Source: Opitutaceae bacterium
GTDB taxonomy: Bacteria > Verrucomicrobiota > Verrucomicrobiia > Opitutales > Opitutaceae
Direction: 5' to 3'
Assembly: GCA_030693515.1 (NCBI GenBank)
Contig: JAUYAK010000063.1
Coordinates: forward strand, 62,001-126,000
Length of the DNA: 64,000 nt
Position numbers and translations under genes: made by a program. Positions 11,319 through 62,564 of the stretch are shown piece by piece (the stretch's first letter is position 1; each line of letters opens with the position of its first letter). Under the pieces are notes generated by a model, which did not search any database, had not been told where the DNA came from, and worked only from the letters and a program-made list of their open reading frames with translations.

Positions 11319-11375
11319 GCGGGGTGGCAGTAGGTGGCCGGAATAAGCTGGCGCGGGTCTGAAACTCAACAACGG

Positions 11376-11392
11376 TTTTCAGGATTTTTCAG
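11376..11392. promoter_or_regulatory. Tandem TTTTCAG half-sites between rhamnosidase and epimerase genes
   Basis: TTTTCAG occurs at 11376-11382 and again at 11386-11392, exactly 10 bp apart, in the shared upstream region of two divergent genes. The same half-site, inverted, makes up the palindrome upstream of the LacI gene at 12329-12343. Binding by that regulator is an inference. Confidence 0.4.
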
Positions 11393-11399
11393 GCCACGC

Positions 11400-12254
11400 A
11401 TGAAAACCAAATCCCCTGCCCCCCGCCTCATCGTCTGCGCCACGCCTTGGTCGATGATCAGCTACCCCACGGCTAAGCGTGAATGGAGCACCCCGCGCAA
11501 AATCGCGGCGATCGCCGAGGCGGGCTTTGATGGCGTCTGCGCCTTTATTACACCCGAGATTCGGACGGAGGCCACCCGCCGCGGCCTCGCGCTGCTGAGC
11601 GGTTTCGATGCACAGGGTGTGGCCGAGGCCCTCCCACGCCTGCGCGCGCAAAGCGACCTCGGCGTGCGCCTCATCAACCTTCAGCTGCTGAACCACGACA
11701 CTCCGCCCGCGGTCGCCACGCGGGCGGCCGTGCAGCTCGTGCGCGCCGGCCGGGAACTCGGCCTCGCCGTGCACATCGAGACCCACCGCGACACCGCCAC
11801 GGAGACGCCGGAAAAATTCACCGAGATCGCGCGGCGCTACCGGCGCGCGACAGGCGAGACGATGCCCGTGACATGGGACCATTCGCACTTCGCCGTCTCC
11901 AAGCACATGATGCCGGCCGACTACTCCGCGCGCCTGCTTGCCTGGCCCGCGTTGATCCGGGCATCGCGCCTCTTTCACCTGCGCCCATTCAACAGCCAGC
12001 ACTGCCAGGTGCCGGTGACTGACGGACGCGGCTCACTCACTCCGGAAGTCCGCGACTACCTCGCCTTCGTGGAGGATCTTTTCGCGTGCTGGCTCGCCGG
12101 CCCGCGACCCGGCGGCGAGCTTTGGATCTGCCCCGAACTCGGCATGAGCCACGGCTACCACGTGAGCACCGACCCGCACACGTGGCCCGACGCGATCCGG
12201 CTGCGCACGGAACTGCTCGGCGCGTGGCGACGGGCGCTGAAACGTCGCGGCTGA
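11400..12254 (+). CDS. Sugar phosphate isomerase/epimerase-like TIM barrel protein
   Basis: A 284-aa protein starting at ATG 11400. The pattern is that of the AP-endonuclease/xylose isomerase-like TIM barrel family: 'TPRKIAAIAEAGFDGVCAF', 'LGVRLINLQLLNHDT', 'GLAVHIETHRDTATET', 'MPVTWDHSHFAVSKHM', 'LWICPELGMSHGYHVS'. Conserved His, Glu and Asp residues in these strands would bind a divalent metal. Family members isomerise or epimerise sugars or keto-sugars. The neighbours (GH78 gene divergent, LacI regulator and TonB receptor downstream) place it in plant or algal glycan use, and a rhamnose-derived substrate is plausible but unproven. Its start lies about 80 bp from the divergent rhamnosidase start. 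Confidence 0.8.
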   Translation: MKTKSPAPRLIVCATPWSMISYPTAKREWSTPRKIAAIAEAGFDGVCAFITPEIRTEATRRGLALLSGFDAQGVAEALPRLRAQSDLGVRLINLQLLNHDTPPAVATRAAVQLVRAGRELGLAVHIETHRDTATETPEKFTEIARRYRRATGETMPVTWDHSHFAVSKHMMPADYSARLLAWPALIRASRLFHLRPFNSQHCQVPVTDGRGSLTPEVRDYLAFVEDLFACWLAGPRPGGELWICPELGMSHGYHVSTDPHTWPDAIRLRTELLGAWRRALKRRG

Positions 12255-12328
12255 CAAGACGCGCTTGGCTGGTGCATCACCGGGGACAGGAAAGCGCTTG
12301 ACGATGCCGCATCAATTTCATGCTGTTT

Positions 12329-12343
12329 GCTGAAATTTTCAGC
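12329..12343. promoter_or_regulatory. Perfect 7-1-7 palindrome upstream of the LacI gene
   Basis: GCTGAAATTTTCAGC is a perfect inverted repeat ending 12 bp before ATG 12356. A position this close to the start and the shape of a LacI operator fit autoregulation. Its half-site TTTTCAG recurs at 11376 and 11386. Confidence 0.5.
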
Positions 12344-12355
12344 CTAACCCCACCC

Positions 12356-13405
12356 ATGCTGATCACCGAAATCGCGAAGATCGCCAAGGTCTCGCCCGCC
12401 ACCGTCTCGCGGGCGATCAACCAGCCGCAGATCGTCGCGCCCGAGAGCCTCGCGCGGATCCGCTCCGTCATGGAGAAGCACAACTATGTGCCCGCGCCGC
12501 TTGAGCGACGCCGCGGGCCCAAGACTCGTCTCTCCGAGCAACGCCGCATCGGCGTGTGGTTTGTCGGTGCCCGGGCGAATAACCCGAGCCACAACTGGTT
12601 TCAGGATCAATTGCTGCAGGTGCAATCGACCGACACGCGTTACCGCGTCGACTTGCGCGTGCTCTTTTCCGCCTCGGCCGACGAACTGCCGCCCACGCTC
12701 GCGAGTGAAAAGCTCGATGGCCTCATCATCCAAGGCCGGGAGCCCTCGGCCGCTTGCCTCGCCAAACTCCGCGATCTCCCGCATGTGTGGTTCATGACGC
12801 GCCGCTCGGCTTCCTACCCCGGCGATTACGTCGAGCCGAATAACGAGGAAAACGGCCGCCTCGCGGCCGATCATCTCGCGCAACGCGGCCACAAGGCCGT
12901 CGCCGTCATCAGCACCGATCCCGACTACAGCGCGGTGTCGCGGCGCGTGAAGGCATTCTTGGAACGCGCAGCCGAGCTGCGATTGCCGGCGCACTCGATC
13001 CTCGGCAAATCCAACCCCGGCGTCGGCTACCTCGAGGTCAAGCCGGTGCACGAGGACACCGACACGCTCGTGCGCACGCTGCTGGGCAGCACCCCGCGCG
13101 CGACCGGGCTTTACATGCCCGTGGATCACTTCTGCGGCTCATTTTTCCGCGCGCTGCGCGAGGCGGGCAAGCAGCCGGGCCGCGACTTCGAAACCATTGT
13201 GGGCAACTACAACCCGATTATTTACCACAATCTCGAGCACTTCCCGCCCGCCATCGACATCAACCTCACCACGCTCGTGCGCAAGGTCGTCGACCACCTC
13301 ATCTGGCGCATCGAAAACCGCGGAGCCCCCGCGCCCGGCCGCATCGGCGTCAGCGTCTCGCCCACCCTGCGGCTCTTCGAGGCCAACGGCCAGAGCGCGC
13401 ACTGA
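12356..13405 (+). CDS. LacI-family transcriptional regulator
   Basis: A 349-aa protein. ATG 12356 was chosen because the LacI helix-turn-helix begins at once ('LITEIAKIAKVSPATVSRAINQPQIVAPE', residues 2-30), followed by the hinge ('KHNYVPAPLERRRG') and a periplasmic-binding-protein-like sensor domain ('RRIGVWFVGARANNPSHNWF', 'EKLDGLIIQG', 'AADHLAQRGHKAVAVISTD'). These proteins repress sugar genes and release DNA when a sugar binds. Likely targets are the divergent rhamnosidase/epimerase genes upstream and the TonB receptor downstream (49 bp after its stop). A palindrome just before the start suggests autoregulation. Confidence 0.93.
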   Translation: MLITEIAKIAKVSPATVSRAINQPQIVAPESLARIRSVMEKHNYVPAPLERRRGPKTRLSEQRRIGVWFVGARANNPSHNWFQDQLLQVQSTDTRYRVDLRVLFSASADELPPTLASEKLDGLIIQGREPSAACLAKLRDLPHVWFMTRRSASYPGDYVEPNNEENGRLAADHLAQRGHKAVAVISTDPDYSAVSRRVKAFLERAAELRLPAHSILGKSNPGVGYLEVKPVHEDTDTLVRTLLGSTPRATGLYMPVDHFCGSFFRALREAGKQPGRDFETIVGNYNPIIYHNLEHFPPAIDINLTTLVRKVVDHLIWRIENRGAPAPGRIGVSVSPTLRLFEANGQSAH

Positions 13406-49213: not shown

Positions 49214-49618
49214 ATGACTATCGGAGAACTCGCCAAAGCTGCCGGAGTAAACGTCCAGACCGTCCGCTACTATGAGCGAATGGAACTCTTGCCGGCGACC
49301 CACCGCTGGCCGGGATCGGGTTACCGGGACTTTGACGATGAAGCCCTGAGCCGCCTGCGGTTCATCCGTTCGGCGAAAGACCTCGGGTTCACCCTGCGCG
49401 AGATCAAGGAGTTAATGGAAATGCAATTTTTACCGGGCGAGTCGTGCGCCGAAGTGAAATGTCTTTTGGAGGGCAAGCAGCAGGAGCTTGATCGGCGCAT
49501 GCTGGAGATGCGCCGGTTGCACCGCGCCTTGGGAAAACTCATCACGGCTTGCCGGCGGCGATCCGCGAAGACGACGTGCCCGGCCCTCTGGGCGATCGCG
49601 TTTAGGGCGGGAAATTAG
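49214..49618 (+). CDS. merR: MerR-family mercury-responsive regulator
   Basis: A 134-aa protein from ATG 49214. The HTH is 'TIGELAKAAGVNVQTVRYYERMELLPATHR' (2-31). The three Hg(II)-ligand cysteines of MerR are conserved in spacing: Cys 78, Cys 113 and Cys 122 (35 and 9 residues apart, as in Tn501 MerR), plus an extra Cys 83. It should repress and, with Hg(II), activate the divergent merT promoter. Its stop overlaps the end of the convergent recombinase gene by 4 bp. Confidence 0.92.
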   Translation: MTIGELAKAAGVNVQTVRYYERMELLPATHRWPGSGYRDFDDEALSRLRFIRSAKDLGFTLREIKELMEMQFLPGESCAEVKCLLEGKQQELDRRMLEMRRLHRALGKLITACRRRSAKTTCPALWAIAFRAGN

Positions 49619-50628
49619 AGCGTGGAAAGCCAGGAGAGGATGTCCTTGTTCGCGCGCCATGATGTCGCCGATGACTTCATTTTGGGCAGCAGTTTTTCGG
49701 CCGAGGCGAGGGTCTTTTGCTTCATCTCCAGGTCGATCTCGACGTAGGTGTTGGTGGTCTCGATGGAGGCGTGGCCCAGCCAGGAGCGGATCATGGCGAG
49801 GTCGACGTTGGATTGAAGGAGGTGCATGGCGGTTGTGTGGCGCCATGTGTGCGGGGTGATCGGTCGCGTGAGCAACGGAGGACACCGTTGCGCCGCTGCA
49901 CGCACGCGATGAGTGACGATGTAGCGCACCCCGTAGCGCGTGAGCCGGTCGCCGTCGGTGTTGAGGAAGAGCGGCACCGCATCGGTGTGCCGAATGGCTC
50001 GCGTCTGAAGGTAACGCTTGAGCGAGCTGACGGTCTCCGCCCAGAGCGGGCAGACCCGCTCCTTGCGGCCCTTGCCATGAATCAGAACCGTGAAGGGTCG
50101 CGTGATGCGAACATGCCGGACATCGAGATCGACCACTTCCTGCGCGCGCATGCCGGTGTTGTAGAGCATCCGCAGGAGGGCGTCGTCACGCTGGCCGAGC
50201 AAAGTCCGGCAATCGATCTGGCGGAAAATCGCCTGCACTTCGTCTCGCTCCAGATACTGCGCGACACGATGCGGCCGGCGCTTGAACGGCACATCGAAAA
50301 TCGCCTGGCAGTGAACCAGGTGCCGAGGATCGACGGTTGTGAGGTAGCGGAAAAAAGAATGGATCGCTGCCAGCCGGAGGTTGCGGGTCACAACCCGGTT
50401 GTGGCGGTCGTCCTCAAGATGAGTGAGAAACCGACGGACCAGCTCCGGCGTTAGGTCGTCGAGCACGAAGTCGTTCACCTGCTTGCGCGGTTGCCGGCAG
50501 GCAAACTCCAGCAGCAGTTTGAACGTGTCGCGATACGATAGGACGGTGTGACCGCTGAGACCTCGTTGCGACACGAGGTGCTGATCGAAAAAGCCCCGGA
50601 TCAACGATGCGAAGTCGGAGGGTGGCAT
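49615..50628 (-). CDS. Tyrosine recombinase, third gene of the RIT trio
   Basis: A 337-aa protein. The N-terminal SAM-like core-binding part is 'SLIRGFFDQHLVSQRGLSGHTVLSYRDTFKLLLEF'. The catalytic domain has Arg in 'YNTGMRAQEVVDLDVRHV', 'HTWRHTTAMHLL' (Arg about 263), His in 'SWLGHASIETTNTY' (about 286) and the nucleophile Tyr about 295. Its start overlaps the second recombinase by 28 bp. The arrangement and size match RitC of RIT elements. With its two partners it should move the element by strand exchange at the inverted ends. Confidence 0.9.
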   Translation of the reverse strand: MPPSDFASLIRGFFDQHLVSQRGLSGHTVLSYRDTFKLLLEFACRQPRKQVNDFVLDDLTPELVRRFLTHLEDDRHNRVVTRNLRLAAIHSFFRYLTTVDPRHLVHCQAIFDVPFKRRPHRVAQYLERDEVQAIFRQIDCRTLLGQRDDALLRMLYNTGMRAQEVVDLDVRHVRITRPFTVLIHGKGRKERVCPLWAETVSSLKRYLQTRAIRHTDAVPLFLNTDGDRLTRYGVRYIVTHRVRAAAQRCPPLLTRPITPHTWRHTTAMHLLQSNVDLAMIRSWLGHASIETTNTYVEIDLEMKQKTLASAEKLLPKMKSSATSWRANKDILSWLSTL

Positions 50629-51587
50629 AGCCTGCTGGCCGCCGGGACGGCGAAATGATCGTGGAAGCGTTGGCCGGTGCTCTCCATCAACTCCGCCGTG
50701 GCGTGGAGATAAACCTCGGTGCCGGTCACGGTGCTGTGGCCAAGGTAGGTCGATAAGGTCGGCAGTTTGGCGAAAAGATTATCGCCCGCCCGGTGCCACG
50801 CCAGCAGCCGGGAAACGGCGAAGGAGTGGCGCAGATCGTGAATCCGTGGGCCACGTTGGCCGGAGGGACCGCGAAGCCCGATGCGGCGGAGGATCTGCAG
50901 GAAGGTGGTCGTGAACGTCGGCACGTGATAACGCCCGCCCGACGCCGACGGGAAAAAGGGCGCGGTTGGCTCCTGCGAGAAGCCTGCGTTGCGCCTCTGC
51001 CGGAGATAGAATGCGAGGTGTTCCACGGTCGAAGGCGCGAGCGGCACATACCGCGTCTTCTGAAACTTAGTCTCCCGAATCAGGATGAGGGCACGCTTCA
51101 GTTCCACGTCCGCCAGGTTGAGCTTCACCGCTTCACCGACGCGCAGGCCGGTGGCGTAGAGGAATCCCACGATGGTCGCGAACACGGCGGGGCGAAGGGC
51201 ATCGCGCGAGCGCACCGCCTTGCCGGCGGTCATGATGCGGCACACCTCCTGTCGAGTATAGATATGCGGCATCGGCCGGTTGCGCCTCGGCAGAAACATC
51301 CGATGCACGATGCACGTGCGCGGATCGAAATGGCTCAGGTAGCGACAAAACTGCCGCAGCACGGATATCCGGTTGATCCGCGTCCCGGGCGCAAGGTGCT
51401 CCATGCTCTTGAACCAACCCTCAGCGGCCTGGCGGGTGATCGTGTCGCCGGGCTTCACCGCACCCATCAGGAAGCGATCTAGGCAGCAGAGAATCTTAAA
51501 AGTCGGTGGACGCTTCGCGGCCGGGCGGGCCTCCAGAAAAGACTGGAGGCGGAAAGCGAGGGGACTGCGGAAAGAACACGTGGCCAT
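50601..51587 (-). CDS. Tyrosine recombinase, second gene of the RIT trio
   Basis: A 328-aa protein. It has Arg in 'YATGLRVGEAVKLNLADVEL', 'IHDLRHSFAVSRLL' (Arg about 253), His in 'TYLGHSTVTGTEVY' (about 284) and the nucleophile Tyr about 293. The first 100 residues are a core-binding domain with 'GAVKPGDTITRQAAEGWF'. It starts 3 bp after the stop of the first recombinase and overlaps the third, so all three are co-translated. Confidence 0.9.
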   Translation of the reverse strand: MATCSFRSPLAFRLQSFLEARPAAKRPPTFKILCCLDRFLMGAVKPGDTITRQAAEGWFKSMEHLAPGTRINRISVLRQFCRYLSHFDPRTCIVHRMFLPRRNRPMPHIYTRQEVCRIMTAGKAVRSRDALRPAVFATIVGFLYATGLRVGEAVKLNLADVELKRALILIRETKFQKTRYVPLAPSTVEHLAFYLRQRRNAGFSQEPTAPFFPSASGGRYHVPTFTTTFLQILRRIGLRGPSGQRGPRIHDLRHSFAVSRLLAWHRAGDNLFAKLPTLSTYLGHSTVTGTEVYLHATAELMESTGQRFHDHFAVPAASRLCHPPTSHR

Positions 51588-51590
51588 CGC

Positions 51591-52901
51591 TCACCTCCGC
51601 GGCCACGGCATTGCGACTTGACGGAGTGTCTTCAAGTCCGCCTTGGCGTAGATGTAAGTTGTATCGATGTAGCGATGACCGAGAACATCGGCGATGGCCT
51701 TGATCGGCTGGTCGTGCTCCAGCGCCCGGATCGCCCAGGAATGACGCAAGCTGTGCGCCCCGCGTCCGGGTTGGTGAACACCGGCTTTGAGCATGTAGTG
51801 CTTTACGACGTTGGAAACGGCCATGCTGCTGAGGGAGCCGTGGGGCGCCTTGGTGCTGAGAAAAACCTCGCGATACGGTGTCCGAGGATCGCGGTGCCGG
51901 AGCCATTGAATGATCGCTTCGCCGACGGCATCGAGGAGTGGAACAAGCACCTCTTTGCCACCCTTTTGGGCGCGAAAACGAATCTTGGCCTGTGGCCAGT
52001 CCAGGTCTTCGAGCGACAAGTGTGCGGCGGAAACGGCCCGGACACCGTAAGCCATCAAAACGAGAATGATCGCGTAGTCGCGCGCTCCGTTGGGCGTCTG
52101 CTTGTCGATCATGGCGAGCACCCGTTCGAGCGACGAATCATCCACACCTCTGGGCAGCGAGGCGTGCCGATAGAGCCGCTGGCGTGGCACGAGACCAGTG
52201 AAGTCGCGCTGCGTGTGGCCGTGGCGGGCGCAATACGCGAGAAACACTCGGAGACTTGAAGAAAGCGAGGCCGTGTTGTCGCTGCTGCCTTGGATGAAGC
52301 GCCGGAGGTGAGACTCCATCTGTTCGGCGCGCATGTCCCGCAAACGGGAGCGTTGAGCGTCGCCCTTCAACGACTCAAGGAAGGCGGTGGTGTGAGCGAT
52401 ATGGCGCTTGAACGTGACCAGTGCCACGATGCGTTCCTCCCGCAGATGCACGGCGTAGGGATCAAGGAGCCAGCTATGCTTCGTGATGACCGGAGCCGGC
52501 CGTGGGAACGCCATGACCTTGATCGCTTCGAGATAGAGGAAAAGGTGCTTGAGGTGGGCCAGGCAGTTATCGCGCGGCCTGTAGCGCGAACACGTGCTGC
52601 GCACCTCGCCCAGATAGGCCGCCAGAAACTCTCCAACTAGCGCGTCGGAGATCGCCGCGAGGTCTTTGATGCCGCGCTCGATCAGGAACGCGTTAAACAC
52701 ACAGCATGGGCCGAGGATTATGCACGCAGTCTTGTTGGCATATCCGTTCTGCTTCAGGCCGGCGGCGAAGCCGTCAAAGTAACCACCCAGAGGCCCGCGT
52801 CTGAAATCGGCCAGCGCGCGCCGGTCGATGTAGAAATACTCCAACCCCTTTTCATCCGACGGCGCCGAGGGATAGAACGGCTTGCGCATGACCCAGCTCA
52901 T
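51591..52901 (-). CDS. Tyrosine recombinase, first gene of the RIT trio
   Basis: A 436-aa protein from ATG 52901 (a GTG lies one codon upstream). It is the longest of the three, as expected for RitA. The catalytic domain has Arg in 'YGVRAVSAAHLSLEDLDW', 'HSLRHSWAIRAL' (Arg about 386), His in 'VLGHRYIDTTYIY' (about 409) and Tyr about 418. The N-terminal 180 residues include 'GFAAGLKQNGYANKTACIILG', a core-binding domain. It starts about 157 bp inside the right end of the element. Confidence 0.9.
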   Translation of the reverse strand: MSWVMRKPFYPSAPSDEKGLEYFYIDRRALADFRRGPLGGYFDGFAAGLKQNGYANKTACIILGPCCVFNAFLIERGIKDLAAISDALVGEFLAAYLGEVRSTCSRYRPRDNCLAHLKHLFLYLEAIKVMAFPRPAPVITKHSWLLDPYAVHLREERIVALVTFKRHIAHTTAFLESLKGDAQRSRLRDMRAEQMESHLRRFIQGSSDNTASLSSSLRVFLAYCARHGHTQRDFTGLVPRQRLYRHASLPRGVDDSSLERVLAMIDKQTPNGARDYAIILVLMAYGVRAVSAAHLSLEDLDWPQAKIRFRAQKGGKEVLVPLLDAVGEAIIQWLRHRDPRTPYREVFLSTKAPHGSLSSMAVSNVVKHYMLKAGVHQPGRGAHSLRHSWAIRALEHDQPIKAIADVLGHRYIDTTYIYAKADLKTLRQVAMPWPRR

Positions 52902-52974
52902 CACGCGTCAACGCCGAGGAAAAGCACGCTGCCGTCAGAACTCTGCTAAAATACAGGAGTAAACCACGGAGAAC

Positions 52975-53535: not shown

Positions 53536-53760
53536 GCTTCCACACGCATGGCCCGAGTGTGCCACGCCCGTCAAGGTAGTCCGCGCTGCGCGCGGCTCCA
53601 CCTTTCCCGCCGGCGGCCTTCCCCTTCGTGGGGAGCGCAGCGCTCCCCGCTCAGCAGCCTTGGCGGTGACTGGGCGTGCCCCACGGGGCCAGCGCGTGGA
53701 ACGCGCCACGAGCAACGGGCAACACCGCCCGACCGGGGCGCACCGGCGCATTTTGTCATG
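53536..53760. repeat. 225-bp direct repeat, copy 1
   Basis: The stretch from GCTTCCACACGC at 53536 to the ATG at 53758 is repeated at 54796-55020 without insertions or deletions, at a constant offset of 1260 bp. It contains GGGGAGCGC-A-GCGCTCCCC and CGCGCTGCGCGCG palindromes. Each copy ends at the start codon of a gene, so it may be a shared leader or promoter. Confidence 0.9.
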
Positions 53761-54291
53761 AACGTCATCGCCGCATCCGCCCAGTCTTCCCTCAAGCTTG
53801 CCGTCCACGCGACCACGCCGAACGAATTCTCCGAGGCACCGGACTACGCCTACCTGGAAATCACGCACCTACAGGCAAGGGCCCTAGTTTACCTGATGAG
53901 CCTGACCCAGCAATTCCGCGGACAGATGGCTCGCAGCGGACTGGTTGATCCCTGTTACGACATCAGTCTCGGTTTGGGTGAGCGGTTGCCCAATTTCCGA
54001 CTGATTCAGATTCCGTTCGGTGAGGATCAAGAGCCGCAACGAGACCGACCCATTGTGCTGTTGCCGGAAGAGTTCGATCCCGAAAGTGTCGGCGAAAACG
54101 CCGAGCATCGGGTGGAGTGCCACCGGATCGAGGTGGGGCGCGAGCAGGTGCGATTCTCGGCTTTGCTCAGGCGGGGCGACGACCGGTTCGTCACGACCGA
54201 TCTCAACGAGAAATTACTTCAGGAGATTGCGAATCAATATCCGACCGATTTGCCGCTGGCTGCACTGGCAGCTCCGTTGGCCGGCGAATGA
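53758..54291 (+). CDS. Protein of unknown function preceded by the 225-bp repeat
   Basis: A 177-aa protein from ATG 53758. The frame is also open upstream through the repeat, but I read that as noncoding because the same repeat precedes another unrelated gene. The sequence ('YLEITHLQARALVYLMSLTQQFRGQMAR', 'RPIVLLPEEFDPESVGENAEHRVECHRIEVGREQVRFSALLRRGDDRFVT') is soluble alpha/beta. No family is recognised. It belongs to the accessory region. Confidence 0.65.
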   Translation: MNVIAASAQSSLKLAVHATTPNEFSEAPDYAYLEITHLQARALVYLMSLTQQFRGQMARSGLVDPCYDISLGLGERLPNFRLIQIPFGEDQEPQRDRPIVLLPEEFDPESVGENAEHRVECHRIEVGREQVRFSALLRRGDDRFVTTDLNEKLLQEIANQYPTDLPLAALAAPLAGE

Positions 54292-54795: not shown

Positions 54796-55020
54796 AGCTT
54801 CCGCACGCGGTTCCGAGTGTGCCACGCCCGTCAAGGTAGTCCGCGCTGCGCGCGGCTCCACCTTTCCCGCCGGTGGCCTTCCCCTTCGTGGGGAGCGCAG
54901 CGCTCCCCACTCCGCGGCCTTGGCGGTGACTGGGCGTGCCCCACGGAACCAGCGCGCGGCACGCGCCACGGGAAACGGGCACTTCCGCCCGGCCGGGGCG
55001 CACCGGCGCCCTTCATCATG
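54796..55020. repeat. 225-bp direct repeat, copy 2
   Basis: The second copy of the repeat at 53536, with scattered substitutions but no length change. It ends at the ATG of the gene at 55018. A shorter, diverged stretch resembling its first 35 bases occurs near 62872. Confidence 0.9.
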
Positions 55021-55611
55021 AACACGAACGACACACCGCATTCGCCGGCTCGGACGGATCGCCTGCCCAATCAACTCTATGCGCCCAACGGACGACGCAT
55101 CGCGGCCAGCAAGGATTGGATTCCCGGCAACGCCCTGATCGCAAGCGTCACCCGCGCACCCGACGGCACGCTCGCGATCGAATGGGAAGGTGAAACGAAA
55201 CTCTGCTGGGACGGCCAATACACCGAGCAGCTCGGCGAACAGAGAATCTTCCTCGACGACGCAGGTAACGAATGGAGCGAGGACCAACTCGCACTTGGCG
55301 CGGAGCCGATTCCGGCCGTAGCGGAGACGACAATGACAACGGACGACGATGCGTGGGCGGCGATTCCGCACTATCCTCTCGGGCAGGTGCCCGAATCGTT
55401 GCCCGACGAAAATCCAGCGCTCTATCGGCAGGTGATCGCGAAGCGCGCGATCCTCGCGGCCTACGAGAACGGCGACGACCCGGAGGCGGGCGTGACCGAT
55501 CTACTCGCGGATCTGCGCCACCTGTGCGACGCGCTGGGTTGGGATTTCGCGACAATGGATAGCGCGGCCTACCGGCACTACACGGAGGAAAAATCCGAAG
55601 GCGTGAAGTAA
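55018..55611 (+). CDS. Protein of unknown function preceded by the 225-bp repeat
   Basis: A 197-aa protein from ATG 55018. The N-terminal half has 'GRRIAASKDWIPGNALIASV' and 'GTLAIEWEGETKLCWDGQYTEQL'. The C-terminal half ('ALYRQVIAKRAILAAYENGDDPEAGVTDLLADLRHLCDALGWDFATMDSAAYRHYTEE') is helical and recalls small plasmid-encoded proteins. No family recognised. It is followed 17 bp later by another unknown gene on the same strand. Confidence 0.65.
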   Translation: MNTNDTPHSPARTDRLPNQLYAPNGRRIAASKDWIPGNALIASVTRAPDGTLAIEWEGETKLCWDGQYTEQLGEQRIFLDDAGNEWSEDQLALGAEPIPAVAETTMTTDDDAWAAIPHYPLGQVPESLPDENPALYRQVIAKRAILAAYENGDDPEAGVTDLLADLRHLCDALGWDFATMDSAAYRHYTEEKSEGVK

Positions 55612-56238: not shown

Positions 56239-57255
56239 TCACGCACCCGGCTTCACCGCGTAACGCTCCAGCCACCGCAGCCATAGTTGACGATAGAGAG
56301 GATTCACGCAGGCCGCAATGGCCTCTCGATAGGCGTCACCCTTCCTTCGTAACCGCAATCCCTCCGCCGTAAGCACGGCCAGCATATCCTTGTAAGCGAG
56401 AGGTAGCGCAGAACCATGCAAGGCTGCCAGAAGTTCGTCCGACGACGAGCCGATGGTGACGATTCGTTCGACGGCACGTTCAATGTCTGCGAAAACATCT
56501 TTCGAGTCGTCAAACGACAGACGTAAATTTGCGCTGTCGACGGCCGCCTCTGTGGGTGAGGCCGTAAGAATCTTGGGCAAATCTCTTACGTAGGCGTGCA
56601 GGCTGTCGCTGACGTGGCAGTAGGAACCCAGCTCGACTCCCAACCACCCGGCAAATATTTCTTGGAGGCAGGTGAACTGAACGAAATCGTAAGGTATGCC
56701 TCGAAAGATGTCGTTACTGCGCATCACCTGCGTCCATTCCAACCGACCGCCGCGAATCTTTAACAGGGCGACAAGATTGCACGGAATATCCGGTGAAACC
56801 GGCAGACCGTCGTTCCCCGGAAGGTCGATTTTACCATCCCATATTTGCAGCACCACCTGACGGCTGTCGGGACAATGCTTCAAGGCGTGGTAAGCACGGG
56901 CGAATTGGTCGAAGCCCAGATGCCGCCGCAGACGTTTGCCGTAGGACCCGTGAAACGTCGGTCCATCGCCGGCCAGTTCCGGCAGCTTGGAGTTAAAATA
57001 GGTCAAAAAGGCCGAATCTTCGCGGCCGCTCAACGTCCAGATTAACTCAGCGAACGCATAGGCCGGGTTGATCGCTGGCGCACGCGAGATCACCCATCGT
57101 GCGCGGGGATTCGCTATCGAAATAGCGGCGTGCAAAATTTCCTTGGTCGGGCCTCCGCGCCCCGGCTGTTCACACACGTCCGCATCGTGTCGCAACGTCT
57201 CTACGATTTTCAGCCAAGTATCGTCCGCACCGGTTCCGGAAAACAGCTTAAACAT
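56239..57255 (-). CDS. Thymidylate-synthase-family enzyme, probable (d)CMP hydroxymethylase or methylase
   Basis: A 338-aa protein from ATG 57255, with GGAGG 5 bp upstream. The thymidylate synthase fold is clear: 'NPAYAFAELIWTLSG' (63-77), 'GSYGKRLR', 'DSRQVVLQIWD' (130-140), the nucleophile Cys 159 in 'DIPCN', phosphate-binding Arg 179 in 'QVMRSND', and 'SLHAY' (His 220, Tyr 222). Asp 190 in 'GIPYD' takes the place of the Asn (E. coli N177) that selects uracil, the same change as in T4 dCMP hydroxymethylase. Cytidylate use is therefore likely, with transfer of a one-carbon unit from folate. Last gene of the six-gene operon; its start overlaps the kinase stop by 8 bp. Confidence 0.85.
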   Translation of the reverse strand: MFKLFSGTGADDTWLKIVETLRHDADVCEQPGRGGPTKEILHAAISIANPRARWVISRAPAINPAYAFAELIWTLSGREDSAFLTYFNSKLPELAGDGPTFHGSYGKRLRRHLGFDQFARAYHALKHCPDSRQVVLQIWDGKIDLPGNDGLPVSPDIPCNLVALLKIRGGRLEWTQVMRSNDIFRGIPYDFVQFTCLQEIFAGWLGVELGSYCHVSDSLHAYVRDLPKILTASPTEAAVDSANLRLSFDDSKDVFADIERAVERIVTIGSSSDELLAALHGSALPLAYKDMLAVLTAEGLRLRRKGDAYREAIAACVNPLYRQLWLRWLERYAVKPGA

Positions 57256-58954
57256 GGGAACCTCCGTTTTTGATCGTCGCGTTGATCCCCCACTTCGGTG
57301 GATACCAATAAACAATCGGTTCCGGCTCTGCCGTAAACCGCTGCTTGATGCGGGTGCGTCCCGTCGGTCCGCTAAACTCCGGGTGCATCACCCGGGCGTA
57401 TTTATCGACCTCGCAAAAGAGATTTTGACAGTCGATGAGCTGGAGCGGCCGACCCCACAAATTTCGGAATGACAACCCGAGCCGGCCAAACTCTTCCTCT
57501 TGGCGATCGGTGACGACCTTGATGATTTCAGCTTCGGTCAATCCGCCTAGGTCGCTAAAACATTTATGGACCCCACTGAAGGCTCCCGGCCCCGGGACGA
57601 CAAAATCCATTTCGGAAAATGAGATCAGTGGACCGTAGTTGAGATCCGTGACATACTGGTAGGCTAGGAAGTCCCCGATGGTCGGATAGGCCCGGATTAG
57701 ATCGAACGCTTTGGCCATCGACCGGGCGGCGGCAATCTTCGACGGGAGCCCGTCTTTGATCATTTGCTCGATCATGCGCAAATGCATCGAGTGTTTCCGC
57801 CCGCCCGGAGCCTTCGCGCCACCCGAGGGCATGATGTAGGCGGCGGAGTAAACGCGTTCGCCTCGCGCCATCGCGGCGCTCAGCACCGCATCGTAGCGTT
57901 TGAACGAAAACTCCTTGAAGGTGATTTCACCCACCTCTCGGCAAAGAAGTTCCCAAGTGTCGATTCGGTTGAAGACCTTGAAAAGCAACGTGCGAAAAAA
58001 GACTTCGTCCGGTGAGGCGTCGCCGCGGTAGATCACTTTCCTGATCAGATACTGGCTCACACGATCCGAGGCCCGGTAGGCGTTCGTGAATTTGAATTCC
58101 CGCAGCACCACGTCATCCGTCCATGGCGAGCGTTGTCCCTCCGCTCGCGCAAAAAAGATGCGCTGCCGTTCACAGGCGAAGCGCCAATAGCTGTCATAGA
58201 CGAGGGTTGTTTTCGCCGGTGCGAGCCGACTGAAAACCTGCGAGCCACGAGCCGCCGTCGGGCTGCCTTGCAGTGCGAGCTGGCCCTGCTGCGAACCGTT
58301 GGTCCGCGCTGTTGGCGTGGACAATTGCCAATCGGGAAATGAAAGCTCGGCTACGATTTTCTTCAGACTCGCGGGCAGCGTTCCATCGTTGGTGATGATG
58401 CGCACGGGATAGTCATTCCGCTCGTTCGCGGCCAGGCGCTGATATTCCTCGATACGTTTGCGCCGCTCGACCGCTTTGTCGTTGGCACGGCCTTTGTCGC
58501 GAAGAATCAGGAAGGCCATCGCCGGTCGGACCGTGCCCCAATGGCAATGCTCGACGTCGATCATCGCCTTGAGTGAAGTGGCAGACGCGCCGGCCACGAT
58601 GCCGTAAACCCACGTCGACCACCAAAAGCGGTCGAGCACGATATGCGTGCCTTGCTTCAAGGCCGGTAATATCTTCGTTTCGATGGCGTCGATGTGGGCG
58701 GCAATGTGCAGCAACTGGAGACTCGCGGGATGAATGACGTGCGCTCCCTGTTCCGGATTCTGGTGATGGAGCCGATATACCTCCGCTCCGAGGGTGCCGG
58801 GCTCCCGACCTGGAAACGAAAAATACATCGCGCGCAAGCCCTGCGCCTGGAGTCGGGCAACCAATTCATGCGCGAGCGTCGTCTTGCCCGACCCGTCGGC
58901 CCCTTCGAAGACGACGAGGCGACCAAGCCCGGTTTGAGCAATCTTAGACGTCAT
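57248..58954 (-). CDS. Thymidylate-kinase-like protein fused to a 5-hmdU DNA kinase/aGPT-Pplase-like domain
   Basis: A 568-aa protein. Residues 1-210 are a thymidylate-kinase-like P-loop enzyme: Walker A 'FEGADGSGKTT' (16-26), 'DRFWWSTWVYG' (Asp 108-Arg 109), and a Lys/Arg-rich lid near 153-170. After a linker, about 250-545 is a helical domain ('SYWRFACERQRIFFARAEGQ', 'LREFKFTNAYRASDRVSQYL', 'FRTLLFKVFNRIDTW', 'PTIGDFLAYQYVTDLNYG') matching the '5-hmdU DNA kinase, helical' family found in phages with hypermodified DNA. The pairing suggests phosphorylation of an unusual nucleotide or base. It overlaps genes on both sides. Confidence 0.82.
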   Translation of the reverse strand: MTSKIAQTGLGRLVVFEGADGSGKTTLAHELVARLQAQGLRAMYFSFPGREPGTLGAEVYRLHHQNPEQGAHVIHPASLQLLHIAAHIDAIETKILPALKQGTHIVLDRFWWSTWVYGIVAGASATSLKAMIDVEHCHWGTVRPAMAFLILRDKGRANDKAVERRKRIEEYQRLAANERNDYPVRIITNDGTLPASLKKIVAELSFPDWQLSTPTARTNGSQQGQLALQGSPTAARGSQVFSRLAPAKTTLVYDSYWRFACERQRIFFARAEGQRSPWTDDVVLREFKFTNAYRASDRVSQYLIRKVIYRGDASPDEVFFRTLLFKVFNRIDTWELLCREVGEITFKEFSFKRYDAVLSAAMARGERVYSAAYIMPSGGAKAPGGRKHSMHLRMIEQMIKDGLPSKIAAARSMAKAFDLIRAYPTIGDFLAYQYVTDLNYGPLISFSEMDFVVPGPGAFSGVHKCFSDLGGLTEAEIIKVVTDRQEEEFGRLGLSFRNLWGRPLQLIDCQNLFCEVDKYARVMHPEFSGPTGRTRIKQRFTAEPEPIVYWYPPKWGINATIKNGGSHV

Positions 58955-59786
58955 CGCGATTCGGAAGACGGGACCGGATGAGGTCCGCCAGCGGAGCCAA
59001 CTCCTCCTTGTTCAGATCGCTGCCCAAATCGGGCAGGCCGACGAAACAGTTCAACCGCACAAAATTCAGGCCCATGTCCCGCGCCATGAAGTGCCCGAGG
59101 TGACACAGGCCGAGATAATTCCCGTAGGCGCGGTCGACGACATATTGGGTCGGATAATACGCGTTCACTGCCAACTGGTCGGCCTCGTCGTATGAAAAGC
59201 TCACTTGTTGAAGACAGGGAAATCCGAGCAACTTGCCGCCCGTGTGATCCTGCACCGGGTCAAAAACGGAGACTTGCAGCGCCGAATGGCGCGGGCTTCC
59301 GCCTTTTTCACGATCGCGGCGCCAAATTGAGATCAAATGATCGAGCTGATTCTTTTCCCTGATTTGCGGCGGACCGTTCTTCGGTTTCTTGCTCCCTTGG
59401 AAACGAACCATGCGCTCGAAATAAGTGCCTCGACCATTAAGTTTATTGCGCGCCTGAAGCCGGGGAAAGAAATCTTTGAGATACCAGTCGGTGAACTCGC
59501 GCACTGGTAGTCTCCCGCGGCGGACCCAGGCATCATAGGGGAAAATAGTGAGCGCGGTGACCTTGCTTGAGAATTTCCTATCCTTGGTCACGAGCAGGGC
59601 ATCGAGCGCCTTTCGGATTTCCATATCTTCGGCCGCCAGGCCGTCGGTGAACCCGGTGACTGACACGACCAAAGGGGCGAGCTTCCGCTTGCTGTTGTCG
59701 AGCACGTGCAACAGCACCCGGCCCCAGGCGTGCGACAAATTTGGCTCTTCGATGACTTGGGGTAGATTATTTGGCATCGGGATCAT
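58944..59786 (-). CDS. Divergent thymidylate-synthase-like protein
   Basis: A 280-aa protein (start ATG 59786; ATG 59777 is also possible). A C-terminal block fits the thymidylate synthase core: 'GFPCLQQVSFSYDEADQLAV' with Cys 191 as possible nucleophile, then 'YYPTQYVVDRAYGNYLGLCHLGHFMARDMGL' in which Asn 224 occupies the place of E. coli N177. The phosphate-binding Arg-Ser of the synthase ('QRS') is replaced by 'PTQ'. 'RGTYFERMVRF' (119-129) may match the substrate loop. It is therefore a distant family member or a partner subunit, not a normal ThyA. Assignment by eye, moderate confidence. Confidence 0.6.
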   Translation of the reverse strand: MIPMPNNLPQVIEEPNLSHAWGRVLLHVLDNSKRKLAPLVVSVTGFTDGLAAEDMEIRKALDALLVTKDRKFSSKVTALTIFPYDAWVRRGRLPVREFTDWYLKDFFPRLQARNKLNGRGTYFERMVRFQGSKKPKNGPPQIREKNQLDHLISIWRRDREKGGSPRHSALQVSVFDPVQDHTGGKLLGFPCLQQVSFSYDEADQLAVNAYYPTQYVVDRAYGNYLGLCHLGHFMARDMGLNFVRLNCFVGLPDLGSDLNKEELAPLADLIRSRLPNRDDV

Positions 59787-60627
59787 CCAAATGGCGATAC
59801 AGGCTCCGGCCTTCGAAGTCGGCGCGACTCACTCGCAGGAATTTCGCCCACTCGCGGCCTTCCAGAAAGGCACGGGCGATGCCAGGCTTTTTGGCCTGCA
59901 CCAAACGACCAGCCGGGAGGTCCGCGAGGACGGCAATCTCTCCGCCCTCGACCACCGCATCGGCCGGCAACAACGCGGTGTGCCCAACTTGAAGGTCAAT
60001 ATTCCCGGTGATCCAATCCACGTCAGCCAGCATCAGATGCTTGGTCGCAACATTCCCGAGCAAATGTTCTCGAATCGATTTTGGCGTCGCGTTCGCCAAC
60101 TCGGCGGCCCGCGAGGGACTGATCAGCCGCAACGACCAACGGAGATGCTGAACGAGCGTCTCGTAGCCGACGCCCAATTCGCAAGCGACGGCGTAAAGTT
60201 CAACGGCGGTGCAGGTCTTGGGATCCAAGACCCGGCGATTGAAGGACGATTCCACTGCCCATGAAGGCATCAACAAGTAAGCGGCGAACAGGTTCGCGCT
60301 CCACTCTTCCGGGTCGTTGCGATCGTCGGGCGCGAACTCGGGCAACTCATCAATGCGACTCCCGTGGCCGAAATACCAATGGCCCATCTCGTGGGCACCC
60401 GTGAACGCCTGCCGGCCCGGAGGCCGCAGCGATGGAACCAAAATCACGTTCGAGCCCTTGGCATACATCCCCTCGAAGCTCCCACCTGCACAGAAACGGA
60501 CTTCAAGTTTCAGACGTTCGGCCAGGTCAAATACACACACGGGCACGGCCTTCGGCACGTTACCGCTCCGACGGGTCTCCAAAGCCCCGCGCAATGCCAG
60601 CCGGGCGAGCGCCTTCCAGTCGCTCAT
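59767..60627 (-). CDS. ImmA/IrrE-family metallopeptidase
   Basis: A 286-aa protein with the zinc motif 'GAHEMGHWYFGH' (HExxH) and a helical domain after it ('EWSANLFAAYLLMPSWAVE', 'LGVGYETLVQHLRWSLRLI'). ImmA-type proteases cut XRE-family repressors to switch on mobile-element genes. Here it overlaps the XRE gene (ATGA), the standard layout. It likely removes the repressor on a signal and so activates the operon in which it lies. Confidence 0.92.
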   Translation of the reverse strand: MSDWKALARLALRGALETRRSGNVPKAVPVCVFDLAERLKLEVRFCAGGSFEGMYAKGSNVILVPSLRPPGRQAFTGAHEMGHWYFGHGSRIDELPEFAPDDRNDPEEWSANLFAAYLLMPSWAVESSFNRRVLDPKTCTAVELYAVACELGVGYETLVQHLRWSLRLISPSRAAELANATPKSIREHLLGNVATKHLMLADVDWITGNIDLQVGHTALLPADAVVEGGEIAVLADLPAGRLVQAKKPGIARAFLEGREWAKFLRVSRADFEGRSLYRHLDDPDAK

Positions 60628-60968
60628 TTGCGATCGCCTCCCGACTTTCGAAGCGAGCGGAGCAGCTTCATCACATTGTCGAAGTCCTGGGGCTTCAACT
60701 TGGCGAGTTCACGGGCGGCCAGCTCGGCCGCCGGATCGGACACCTCTGGTTTCTCTTCGGCCAACCATGAAATACTGACGTCATAGATGCGCCCGAAGCC
60801 TGCCAGTTCATCTGCCGCGACCCGACGGCGACCGGCCTCGATCTCGGAAATAGTCGGGCGCTGCATGTCGAGCAGCTTGGCCGCCTGTCCTTGCGACAGC
60901 CCGGATTGTTCGCGGGCCGCACGAAGGCGGGCTGCGATGGCGAGACGGAGTTGATCGGAGTCGCTCAT
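60624..60968 (-). CDS. XRE-family (Cro/CI-like) repressor
   Basis: A 114-aa protein from ATG 60968. The HTH is 'LRAAREQSGLSQGQAAKLLDMQRPTISEIEAGRRRVAADEL' (about 15-55). The C-terminal 50 residues are a short tail, likely the ImmA cleavage region. It overlaps the ACP stop (ATGA) and the ImmA start (ATGA). Likely binds the GTAAG palindromes upstream of the operon. Confidence 0.92.
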   Translation of the reverse strand: MSDSDQLRLAIAARLRAAREQSGLSQGQAAKLLDMQRPTISEIEAGRRRVAADELAGFGRIYDVSISWLAEEKPEVSDPAAELAARELAKLKPQDFDNVMKLLRSLRKSGGDRK

Positions 60969-61252
60969 GAACCTCCTTTTGGGATGAGGGCACACATGAG
61001 ATCAATAGCCCCGCCGACTAGCCGGGAACATTGCCCTGCATCATCCACGAGCGGGTTCACTTCGTCGGGCACCTTGCACCCGAATTTCTCGCTGAGCACA
61101 CAGGCGAACTCCACTCCGTCCTCGCTGTCGAGGCCGAGGTCCTTAAACGGATCGGTGGTCTCGGTGATTTCGGCGGGCGCGTTCTCACCGAGAAACTCGC
61201 GGAGCGTCGTCAGAAAGACGTCGCGCACTTTATTTCGGTCGGGGGCATTCAT
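60965..61252 (-). CDS. Acyl carrier protein
   Basis: A 95-aa protein from ATG 61252. The phosphopantetheine site is 'KDLGLDSEDGVEFACVLSEKFG' with Ser in the DS motif, inside the usual four-helix pattern ('VRDVFLTTLREFLGENAP' before it). It is the first gene of the operon, coupled to the XRE gene. A carrier protein next to nucleotide enzymes suggests an acyl or aminoacyl group is made or transferred in the pathway; its loading enzyme is not in the window. Confidence 0.88.
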   Translation of the reverse strand: MNAPDRNKVRDVFLTTLREFLGENAPAEITETTDPFKDLGLDSEDGVEFACVLSEKFGCKVPDEVNPLVDDAGQCSRLVGGAIDLMCALIPKGGS

Positions 61253-61260
61253 GGCGTATG

Positions 61261-61294
61261 GTAAGATATTCTTACATGATGTAAGCATTGTCAA
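61261..61294 (-). promoter_or_regulatory. Promoter and operator of the ACP-XRE-ImmA-nucleotide operon
   Basis: On the minus strand a perfect -35 TTGACA lies at 61294-61289. Between it and the ACP start, three GTAAG/CTTAC half-sites sit 10 bp apart (61261, 61271, 61281), forming CTTACATGATGTAAG (7-1-7 palindrome, 61271-61285) and GTAAGATATTCTTAC. A repressor bound here would block the promoter, consistent with the XRE gene in the operon. Confidence 0.7.
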
Positions 61295-61574
61295 GTCCGA
61301 TGAGTGATTTTTGCGCGCATGACCGATGCGATGCGAAAATCAGGCTCCCGTTCCTCTTGTTAGGCCCGGCAATTGTGGTCGAAACCCGCCTCATATCTGT
61401 TTGGCTATCCGTCATCGTTTCGATGCAACTCTTCCGGCCTTCATTATCAGCGAGTTTCGCCGCCGGCTTTTCGCTTGAATTTCCACCGGCTTTGGCCGAT
61501 AGTCTTCGCAACAGACCTGCCACGCCTCTCAACGATGCGCAATTTGGTGGGTATTTTTTTGCCCGGATTTGGCG
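61295..61574. other. Noncoding gap upstream of the Abi gene
   Basis: 280 bp between the divergent operon and the Abi start. It has visibly lower GC than nearby genes and CGAAAC...GTTTCG and GCCGG...CCGGC inverted pairs. No convincing ORF. It could hold the Abi promoter or a small RNA. Confidence 0.4.
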
Positions 61575-62564
61575 ATGAAGTTCACCAAACTCGCGCTCGA
61601 CCTTCCCGGGCAACTCAAACGTCTCACGGATCGTGGGCTGATTGTGCCGGATGCGGCGACCGCCCAAGGATGCCTCACTCATCTCGGCTACTACCGGCTG
61701 TCCGCGTATGCGCTGCCGTTTCAAGACAAGACCCAGGCCGGCAAGCCGTTCAAGCCCGGCACGGTATTTCAACAGGTTTTGGATCTTTATCGTTTCGATC
61801 GCGAATTGAGGCTGCTCGTGATCGACGCGATTGAGCGGGTAGAAATTTCCGTCCGATCGCAAATCGTGAACACCCTGTGCATGACGCACGGCGCACATTG
61901 GTTTCTCGACGCGGCCCATTTCCAGCCGAAGTTCGATCATGGGATGTTTCTCCGCAAAATCGAAGATGATTTCGGCGTGAAGACGGGGCCGGGTGGTGCG
62001 AAGATTTTGCCAACGCGTCCGCACAGCGAGGCTTTCATCGCCCACTACTACCAGAAATACGGCGACCCTTACCTGCCGCCGTTTTGGATGGTGGCGGAGA
62101 CGCTGACGCTCGGGTCGCTGTCCAAACTTTATGAGGGACTGCGTGACAACGTGACGCGCAACGCCATTGCGGGGGTTTATGGCCTCAACGAGGCCGTGCT
62201 GGTGTCGTGGCTGCGCAGTCTCACCTATCTCCGCAATCTTTGTGCGCATCATTCCCGGCTGTGGAACCGGGACTTCGCGATCAAGCCTTTGGTCGCGCAC
62301 AAGCTCGGGACGTTGCTCGCTCCGTTTCCCAAGACACTGGCGGATGGCCGCACGATTCAGGTGCAGCCGCCTTCGCGGTTTTATGCGCTGGCGGTGGTCT
62401 TGTTCGATTTCCTGAAGGTCGTTTCGATTGGGACGATCTGGAACGAACGGCTGGCTGCGCTGCTGGCCAGCCATGCTTTTGTCGATCCGATGGCGATGGG
62501 GTTCCCTGCGAATTGGAAGACGGAGGCCTTCTGGAAATTCCCACCCCCGGCGCCGACCGTTTAG
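61575..62564 (+). CDS. Abi-family (AbiD/AbiF-like) abortive-infection protein
   Basis: A 329-aa protein from ATG 61575 (TTG 61569 possible). Family motifs are 'QGCLTHLGYYRLSAYALPF', 'VLDLYRFDRELRLLVIDAIERVEISVRSQIVNTL', 'PPFWMVAETLTLGSLSKLY', and the HEPN-like RNase motif 'LRNLCAHHSRLWNRDF' (R-x4-6-H). Abi_2 proteins give phage resistance by cell growth arrest through RNA cleavage. It is divergent from the modified-nucleotide operon, typical of a defence island. Confidence 0.92.
   Translation: MKFTKLALDLPGQLKRLTDRGLIVPDAATAQGCLTHLGYYRLSAYALPFQDKTQAGKPFKPGTVFQQVLDLYRFDRELRLLVIDAIERVEISVRSQIVNTLCMTHGAHWFLDAAHFQPKFDHGMFLRKIEDDFGVKTGPGGAKILPTRPHSEAFIAHYYQKYGDPYLPPFWMVAETLTLGSLSKLYEGLRDNVTRNAIAGVYGLNEAVLVSWLRSLTYLRNLCAHHSRLWNRDFAIKPLVAHKLGTLLAPFPKTLADGRTIQVQPPSRFYALAVVLFDFLKVVSIGTIWNERLAALLASHAFVDPMAMGFPANWKTEAFWKFPPPAPTV

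Follow-up and report, generated by a model that had tools for sequence, protein, structure and literature searches.

Two lines of work bear on the locus analyzed here. In Escherichia coli, systems with domains that include 5-hydroxymethyluracil kinase and thymidylate synthase (TS), among others, reduce phage plating or plaque size, as described in parts of the report on DefensePredictor, a screen from 2026 (PMC13092281). According to sections of a second account, CapH and CapP, together with CapW, control immune operons such as BREX, Pycsar, CBASS, and DISARM, and single-stranded DNA (ssDNA) activates CapP, which cleaves CapH (PMC13373217); PprI is likewise presented as an ssDNA sensor in part of a third (PMC10904395). 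Here, we describe an operon on a 64,000-nt stretch of an Opitutaceae bacterium contig (JAUYAK010000063.1, positions 62,001 to 126,000; from here on, the window). This minus-strand operon (56239-61252) consists of six intact open reading frames (ORFs) in the order acyl carrier protein (ACP), XRE repressor, ImmA/IrrE metalloprotease, a divergent TS-fold enzyme (TSL), a protein with thymidylate kinase and 5-hydroxymethyldeoxyuridine (5-hmdU) DNA kinase helical domains (KIN), and a second TS-family enzyme (TSD). With a probability of roughly 55%, we read the whole as a mobile, DNA damage-inducible defense cassette that makes a C5-modified pyrimidine against phage.

Recurrence and core of the cassette

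All six frames are open, and at their likeliest starts adjacent genes overlap by 4 (ACP/XRE), 4 (XRE/ImmA), 20 (ImmA/TSL), 11 (TSL/KIN), and 8 (KIN/TSD) bases, in line with the six-gene operon with 4- to 20-base overlaps that an initial annotation, made from the sequence alone, had described. Pfam profile searches agree with the families that this annotation had given to ACP, XRE, ImmA, KIN, and TSD (E values of 2.9e-7 to 3.7e-110), and the synthase- and kinase-like proteins do belong to the families named for them, in the case of TSL by a weak NCBIfam match and a model with a TS fold. A search of other genomes for this gene order, as it had suggested, was also positive: the order recurs across phyla, on chromosomes and plasmids, far beyond chance.

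A KIN pattern scan over contigs from 84,980 species genomes gave 32 loci, 23 of which contain TSL; these 23, the TSL-seeded loci, and the window make up the set of 43 loci used for the counts below. The nine KIN-scan loci without TSL (L009, L018, L024, L025, L028, L029, L031, L032, and L033) were left out, and KIN is truncated by the contig end in L018, L025, and L033. ACP, XRE, and ImmA are present in 43/43 TSL loci and a KIN/HMUDK_hel protein in 40/43, with ACP and TSL models that were built partly from these same loci. Among the 19 TSL-seeded loci (10 plasmids and 9 genomes), the corresponding numbers are 19/19 and 16/19. ACP-XRE-ImmA-TSL-(DCD)-KIN is the order in most mapped loci, and KIN is on the opposite strand in the Streptomyces plasmids and in L027 and L034. 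Regulators aside, TSL, which was the entry criterion, and ACP are the sole proteins found in every locus; therefore, the simplest reading is that both act together.

The 43 loci span about a dozen phyla and include 10 plasmids, with carriers among Acidobacteria, Verrucomicrobia, Planctomycetes, Dehalococcoidia, Elusimicrobia, Armatimonadota, Cyanobacteria, Bacteroidetes, Nitrospinia, Proteobacteria, and Streptomyces. Because L059 to L061 are nearly identical (99.6 to 100% in TSL) and L057 and L058 are 70% alike, the 43 loci represent fewer than 43 independent events. Based on their patchy spread and plasmid carriage, the six genes appear to form a mobile cassette. TSL searches were positive for 10 of 72,556 plasmids, 6 of these 10 being conjugative. 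In the host's phylum, they identified 4 carriers of the cassette among 387 genomes, the host being one of the 4; a fifth, weak match (G424), a TSD-like protein with no cassette around it, was discarded. In the phylum to which a Leptolyngbyaceae genome belongs, 7 of 292 genomes have the cassette; this central genome is counted among the 7, one of which is the source of L030. HMUDK_hel was detected in 1 of 95 relatives, namely the host itself. L035, L036, L070, and L071 are copies carried by conjugative plasmids from Cyanobacteria and Rhizobiaceae, and two of the four (L035 and L071) have Lamassu-type genes beside them. L062 has a broken copy (7492-11183), in which TSL is interrupted by one transposase gene of the IS66 family and one of the DDE_Tnp_1 family.

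TSL has no Pfam match at an E value of ≤1 and a weak NCBIfam TS match (4.6e-6) that lies under the cut-off of that model. Its AlphaFold2 model, based on a 23-row alignment, has a TS fold (pLDDT 90.9, pTM 0.90) and is structurally most similar to a flavin-dependent dCMP hydroxylase (9iqc; VIA Z 16.1 over 206 residues, rmsd 3.2), followed by the CMP hydroxymethylase MilA (Z 15.7) and ThyA (Z 14.9). Residues of TSL were mapped by a profile alignment with TSD, which is weak (E 0.017) and yet places Cys on Cys and Asn on Asn/Asp. The catalytic Cys (Cys191) and the base-reading Asn (Asn223) are kept in 43/43 loci; by contrast, at the positions aligned to those ThyA residues that we take to be the folate-site Asp and the phosphate-binding Arg, Asp is found in 5/43 and Arg in 8/43 loci, and the window has neither. 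Judged from these residues, TSL retains the nucleophile and base recognition, and its cofactor (folate) site has drifted. A search of 50,697 phage records gave 0 TSL matches at an E value of ≤1e-5.

The carrier protein is as strictly conserved, with the phosphopantetheine Ser present in 43/43 loci. A phosphopantetheinyl transferase (PPTase)-like gene lies within 6.5 kb of TSL in 9/43 loci and, by Pfam, also in L027; none was found near the window copy. The idea in the initial annotation that ACP supplies a group gains weight from the presence of ACP in every copy.

In the model of KIN, a thymidylate kinase domain (Z 23.0 over 182 residues, rmsd 1.6) is followed by the HMUDK_hel domain; among viral structures, KIN is matched best by the 5-hmdU DNA kinase from phage SP10 (3e-17). 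In structure searches for the HMUDK_hel fold, the matches listed were all to the kinase domain of KIN. Phage proteins match KIN over only part of its length, with 0 of the 502 matching records at a coverage of at least 80%. Relative to HMUDK_hel, the kinase domain can be fused, encoded by a separate gene alongside (for example, L022), or not seen nearby (for example, L059), and HMUDK_hel is the steadier part of KIN. KIN is absent from three Rhizobium/Bradyrhizobium plasmids, in which genes annotated as uracil-DNA glycosylase (UDG) and papain-like protease are found instead; by Pfam, the UDG assignment was confirmed in L067 and the protease assignment in L068.

The last position is also exchangeable. 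Within 6.5 kb of TSL, TSD-type proteins are encoded in 21, MazG-MazG_C proteins in 22, and radical SAM proteins in 5 of the 43 loci, some of which have two; at least one of the three is found in 42/43, and L067 has none. A dCTP-deaminase/dUTPase-like protein is encoded within the same distance in 14/43 loci. In L025, HMUDK_hel and MazG_C share one frame, which is still open where the contig ends. We rejected homology between MazG_C and HMUDK_hel, as hhalign detected no similarity and the clustering link came from this single ORF.

In TSD, the Cys, Arg, Asp, and Glu that we take to be active-site residues are at their usual places in 17/17 rows, with Asn after the Cys. At the base-reading position, the window (D210, counted in the long frame) and L015 have Asp, and 15/17 have Asn; Asp in place of Asn is presumably the mark of a dCMP/CMP hydroxymethylase. 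Thus, the cytidylate-selecting Asp noted in the initial annotation is real in the window but is found in only 2 of 17 relatives, and we rejected a cytidylate pathway as a trait of the family. It is unlikely that TSD is the housekeeping ThyA: it is the only PF00303 protein found in the host, which, however, also has a protein of the ThyX family (PF02511, 2.3e-9).

Regulatory switch and putative operator

ImmA has the HExxH motif in 43/43 loci, and the adjacent XRE and ImmA proteins match the PADLOC families capH and capP (Table 1). CapH/CapP-like proteins and a conserved operator sequence support the repressor and protease switch that had been proposed for the operon. The switch, described there as prophage-style, is better read as being of the CapH/CapP immune operon type, with TSL in no phage record searched.

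The putative operator consists of three alternating half-sites (GTAAG-N5-CTTAC-N5-GTAAG), and the window has an exact copy. At ≤2 mismatches, this copy is the only one in the 6.65-Mb host genome, in which a reversed-pattern control gave 2 hits. In the interval from −200 to +60 relative to the called ACP start, the pattern is present in 23, 26, and 30 of 44 loci at ≤1, ≤2, and ≤3 mismatches, respectively, having been derived from these same upstream regions before being counted. Elsewhere in the 44 loci, there is a single match at ≤1 mismatch, in L004, directly before a later in-frame ACP start; the called ACP starts of L004 and L008 are too far upstream, and sites with 1 and 3 mismatches, respectively, precede the later starts. 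The best palindromes upstream of ACP were often no better than those in shuffled sequences, and the operator count rests on the fixed pattern. The operator is absent from the three Streptomyces copies. The Streptomyces loci L072 and L073 have a common palindrome, TGTCGTATGCTACGACA, about 50 to 75 bases upstream of ACP, which is a possible alternative operator and the score of which was reached by 7 and 6 of 60 shuffles, respectively. We infer that XRE binds the operator in the window, and the arrangement looks like that of a cassette which is repressed and inducible rather than constantly expressed.

Table 1. Positions in the window of the putative operator, the six cassette genes, and the neighboring Abi gene
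Feature	Position	Strand	Support
Operator GTAAG-N5-CTTAC-N5-GTAAG	61261..61285	+	Exact pattern match, just upstream of ACP start
Acyl carrier protein (ACP)	60965..61252, long frame from 61294	-	PF00550 2.9e-7
XRE repressor, CapH-like	60624..60968, long frame from 60995	-	HTH_31 1.4e-13; PADLOC capH 6.3e-12
ImmA/IrrE metalloprotease, CapP-like	59767..60627	-	Peptidase_M78 5e-12; PADLOC capP 4.9e-18
TSL, divergent thymidylate-synthase-fold enzyme, core enzyme	58944..59786	-	AlphaFold2 model with TS fold
KIN, thymidylate-kinase-fold domain and 5-hmdU DNA kinase helical domain	57248..58954	-	PF02223 2.4e-19, PF18723 3.7e-110
TSD, second thymidylate-synthase-family enzyme, exchangeable last gene	56239..57255, long frame from 57315	-	PF00303 8.1e-18
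Abi gene, neighbor	61569-62564	+	Abi_2 8.9e-55; AbiD 3.7e-63

The Abi gene that the initial annotation placed next to the operon is genuine, but we rejected it as a component of the cassette because phmmer with Abi matched no ORF in the 32 related loci. Three consecutive tyrosine recombinase genes (49615-52904, minus strand; PF00589 at 2.4e-31, 4.6e-19, and 4.1e-25) lie about 3.3 kb from the operon in a row that, we presume, resembles a recombinase-in-trio element. A 211-nt direct repeat with 91% identity (53553-53763 and 54813-55023) is located near two plus-strand ORFs without a Pfam match. On a Mesorhizobium plasmid, L039 contains a separate cluster (7435-12508) with TIR, Nmad2-like, thymidylate kinase-like, MazG-family, and uracil-DNA glycosylase genes, possibly a modular cousin of the cassette.

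Defense setting and possible function

Several copies have genes of known defense systems beside them, including the Lamassu genes LmuA/LmuB (L035), an LmuB-like gene (L071), the Shedu gene SduA (L069), and a Thoeris-like gene for a ThsB-like TIR protein (L010). Type I restriction-modification (R-M) genes adjoin the copies in L015 (HsdM/HsdS by Pfam), L059, and L061, and the AbiD gene adjoins the cassette in the window; some other neighbors are plain metabolic genes. At 1e-15, 59 neighbor ORFs matched 108 PADLOC families, and 61 control ORFs from the same genomes matched 12, mostly helicase models. For the neighbors, the sample comprised 59 of 77 ORFs (7 loci); for the controls, 61 of 171 ORFs were hand-picked from near the beginning of 16 of 17 control stretches. 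The R-M genes in this test came from L059 and L061, which are 99.6% identical in TSL and represent one event. Based on the defense neighbors, the CapH/CapP-like switch, and the protection conferred in E. coli by the DefensePredictor TS/5-hydroxymethyluracil kinase system, the antiviral role considered possible in the initial annotation is likely, although not proven. Pairs of TIR and Nmad2 genes are found beside the cassette in L010, L011, and L054 and beside the KIN/TSD part in L009.

We propose that, without attack, the CapH-like XRE repressor would occupy the operator. Upon infection or damage, ssDNA, a trigger borrowed from the relatives, would activate the CapP-like ImmA protease, the repressor would be cleaved, and the operon would be switched on. 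The Cys of TS-type enzymes turns C5 of a pyrimidine into a carbanion. In this manner, TSL would activate C5 of a uridine-type nucleotide, and the dedicated holo-ACP would be the donor or the handler of the added group. The kinase domain would then phosphorylate the C5-modified nucleotide, and the HMUDK_hel domain would handle the modified base in the nucleotide or in DNA, while the second TS, MazG-MazG_C, radical SAM, and sometimes dCTP-deaminase-like or UDG proteins might tailor the product or trim the nucleotide pool. The final product would block or mark phage DNA. The acyl-to-pyrimidine chemistry, the product, and its target are predictions; with the folate site having drifted, an ACP thioester would be a chemically reasonable partner for the TSL C5 carbanion. 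A more specific version, which we offer tentatively and regard as doubtful, is that TSL has abandoned folate and pairs the C5 carbanion with the ACP thioester, giving C5-acylated or ACP-built pyrimidine nucleotides that, via the HMUDK_hel/UDG slot, would form a new inducible class of antiviral nucleotides. If true, this chemistry would join the carrier chemistry of fatty acids and polyketides to nucleobase chemistry in immunity.

Several points count against a defense cassette of this kind. The ssDNA trigger of the switch would apply by analogy. Six KIN-scan loci hold KIN or part of KIN without the cassette, and the settings without the cassette include TSD, TIR, and Nmad2 in L009 and MazG-MazG_C in L024 and L028. 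In 14 of 44 loci, L004 and L008 among them, the region around the called ACP start lacks an operator at ≤3 mismatches. None of TSL, TSD, and ACP is assigned to a named system by PADLOC, and 23 of the 25 neighbor families listed among the 108 matched are type I R-M families, so that the neighbor test is weak. No acyl-loading or -transferring enzyme was recognized in the cassette, and ACP could be regulatory. Finally, the main text of the DefensePredictor report names neither an acyl carrier protein nor CapH (0 occurrences).

The same enzymes could instead serve in surveillance of phages with modified DNA, recognizing, phosphorylating, or excising phage hydroxymethyl-pyrimidines without making a new base. 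Phage 5-hmdU DNA kinases include relatives of HMUDK_hel, three plasmid copies have a UDG-superfamily gene in place of KIN, DCD- and MazG-type pool enzymes stand beside many copies, and part of the report on the DNA glycosylase Brig1 describes defense by excision of modified bases (PMC11078745). Surveillance would leave unexplained the invariant ACP and the one or two TS-fold enzymes with an intact catalytic Cys, and we consider it unlikely. A cassette that marks host DNA with a hypermodified base in the style of restriction-modification would agree with the base-modifying activity of KIN homologues from phages and with the type I R-M genes next to some copies. Yet the recurring cassette genes include no nuclease, and the operator and protease switch look repressed and inducible, not constant, which makes self-modification highly improbable. 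For a prophage hypermodification operon that has degenerated, the point in favor is that phages commonly carry members of the HMUDK_hel and TS families; with six intact frames, a gene set conserved across bacteria and plasmids, and TSL in 0 of 50,697 phage records, we rejected a prophage remnant, the probability of which is close to nil.

ACP might also be a sensor or regulatory partner of XRE/ImmA that reports fatty-acid status, rather than the substrate carrier of TSL. It directly precedes XRE in mapped copies, and an enzyme for acyl transfer was not recognized; still, the invariant Ser (43/43) and nearby PPTase genes fit catalysis at least equally well, and sections of the CapH/CapP account, in which ACP was not specifically searched for, mention no ACP (PMC13373217). 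We regard a sensory ACP as rather improbable. A cassette for DNA damage repair or tolerance, or a pathway for a nucleoside-type secondary metabolite, would have no antiviral role. TS and kinase are found together in nucleoside antibiotic pathways as well (mildiomycin, bacimethrin). In addition, CapP/PprI-type switches respond to damage, according to part of one account (PMC10904395). That neither repair nor metabolite synthesis is the function is nevertheless very probable, given the patchy spread, the plasmid carriage, and the known defense systems adjacent; moreover, 14 protein clusters occur in at least 3 of the 32 loci, and none is an exporter or resistance gene, each new cluster being identified from one representative. 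Returning to the defense cassette, strict conservation of ACP and TSL and a drifted folate site in a mobile, probably inducible cassette point to nucleobase chemistry for which we found no report in bacterial immunity. TSL, holo-ACP, and a uridine nucleotide would make up a two-protein reaction open to direct test, and the operator offers an easy handle on induction.

Comparison with known systems

Literature searches found no published ACP/TS/ImmA cassette, although an earlier in silico mention is possible. We found no printed account of the ACP-TSL core, of the exchangeable slots, or of the operator that the loci share, whereas the enzyme families and the link to defense are already known or predicted. 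The DefensePredictor system in E. coli has TS, dNMP kinase, and 5-hmdU DNA kinase domains, and all three families are represented in the cassette; in the parts of the report concerned, the three domains are read from the legend as parts of one system, the legend does not state which domain belongs to which gene, and the domains are described as new to defense (PMC13092281). On this partial description, the system may be a distant relative of the cassette or a different system. A blastn search with one distant KIN (L034), a weak test, found no relative in E. coli genomes.

TSL shares the TS fold with its best structural matches, MilA and the flavin-dependent dCMP hydroxylase AfhB, at 11 to 14% identity; it differs from them in having Asn at the base-reading site in 43/43 loci and in missing the usual folate-site Asp in 38/43. 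Phage thymidine hypermodification (5-HMUDK, SP10) has in common with the cassette a thymidylate kinase-like P-loop domain with HMUDK_hel and TS-family enzymes. In contrast to the phage pathways, the cassette is bacterial and plasmid-borne, is apparently inducible, includes ACP, and contains TSL, which is in no searched phage; moreover, and different from phage 5-HMUDK, the frame that encodes HMUDK_hel in the cassette often encodes no kinase domain. Similar to the immune operons with CapH and CapP (CBASS, DISARM, Bub, and others), the cassette has genes for a helix-turn-helix repressor and an HExxH protease before an immune-like operon. It differs from those operons in that it lacks a recognized cyclase or nuclease effector, has ACP before the regulators, and has a conserved operator of its own.

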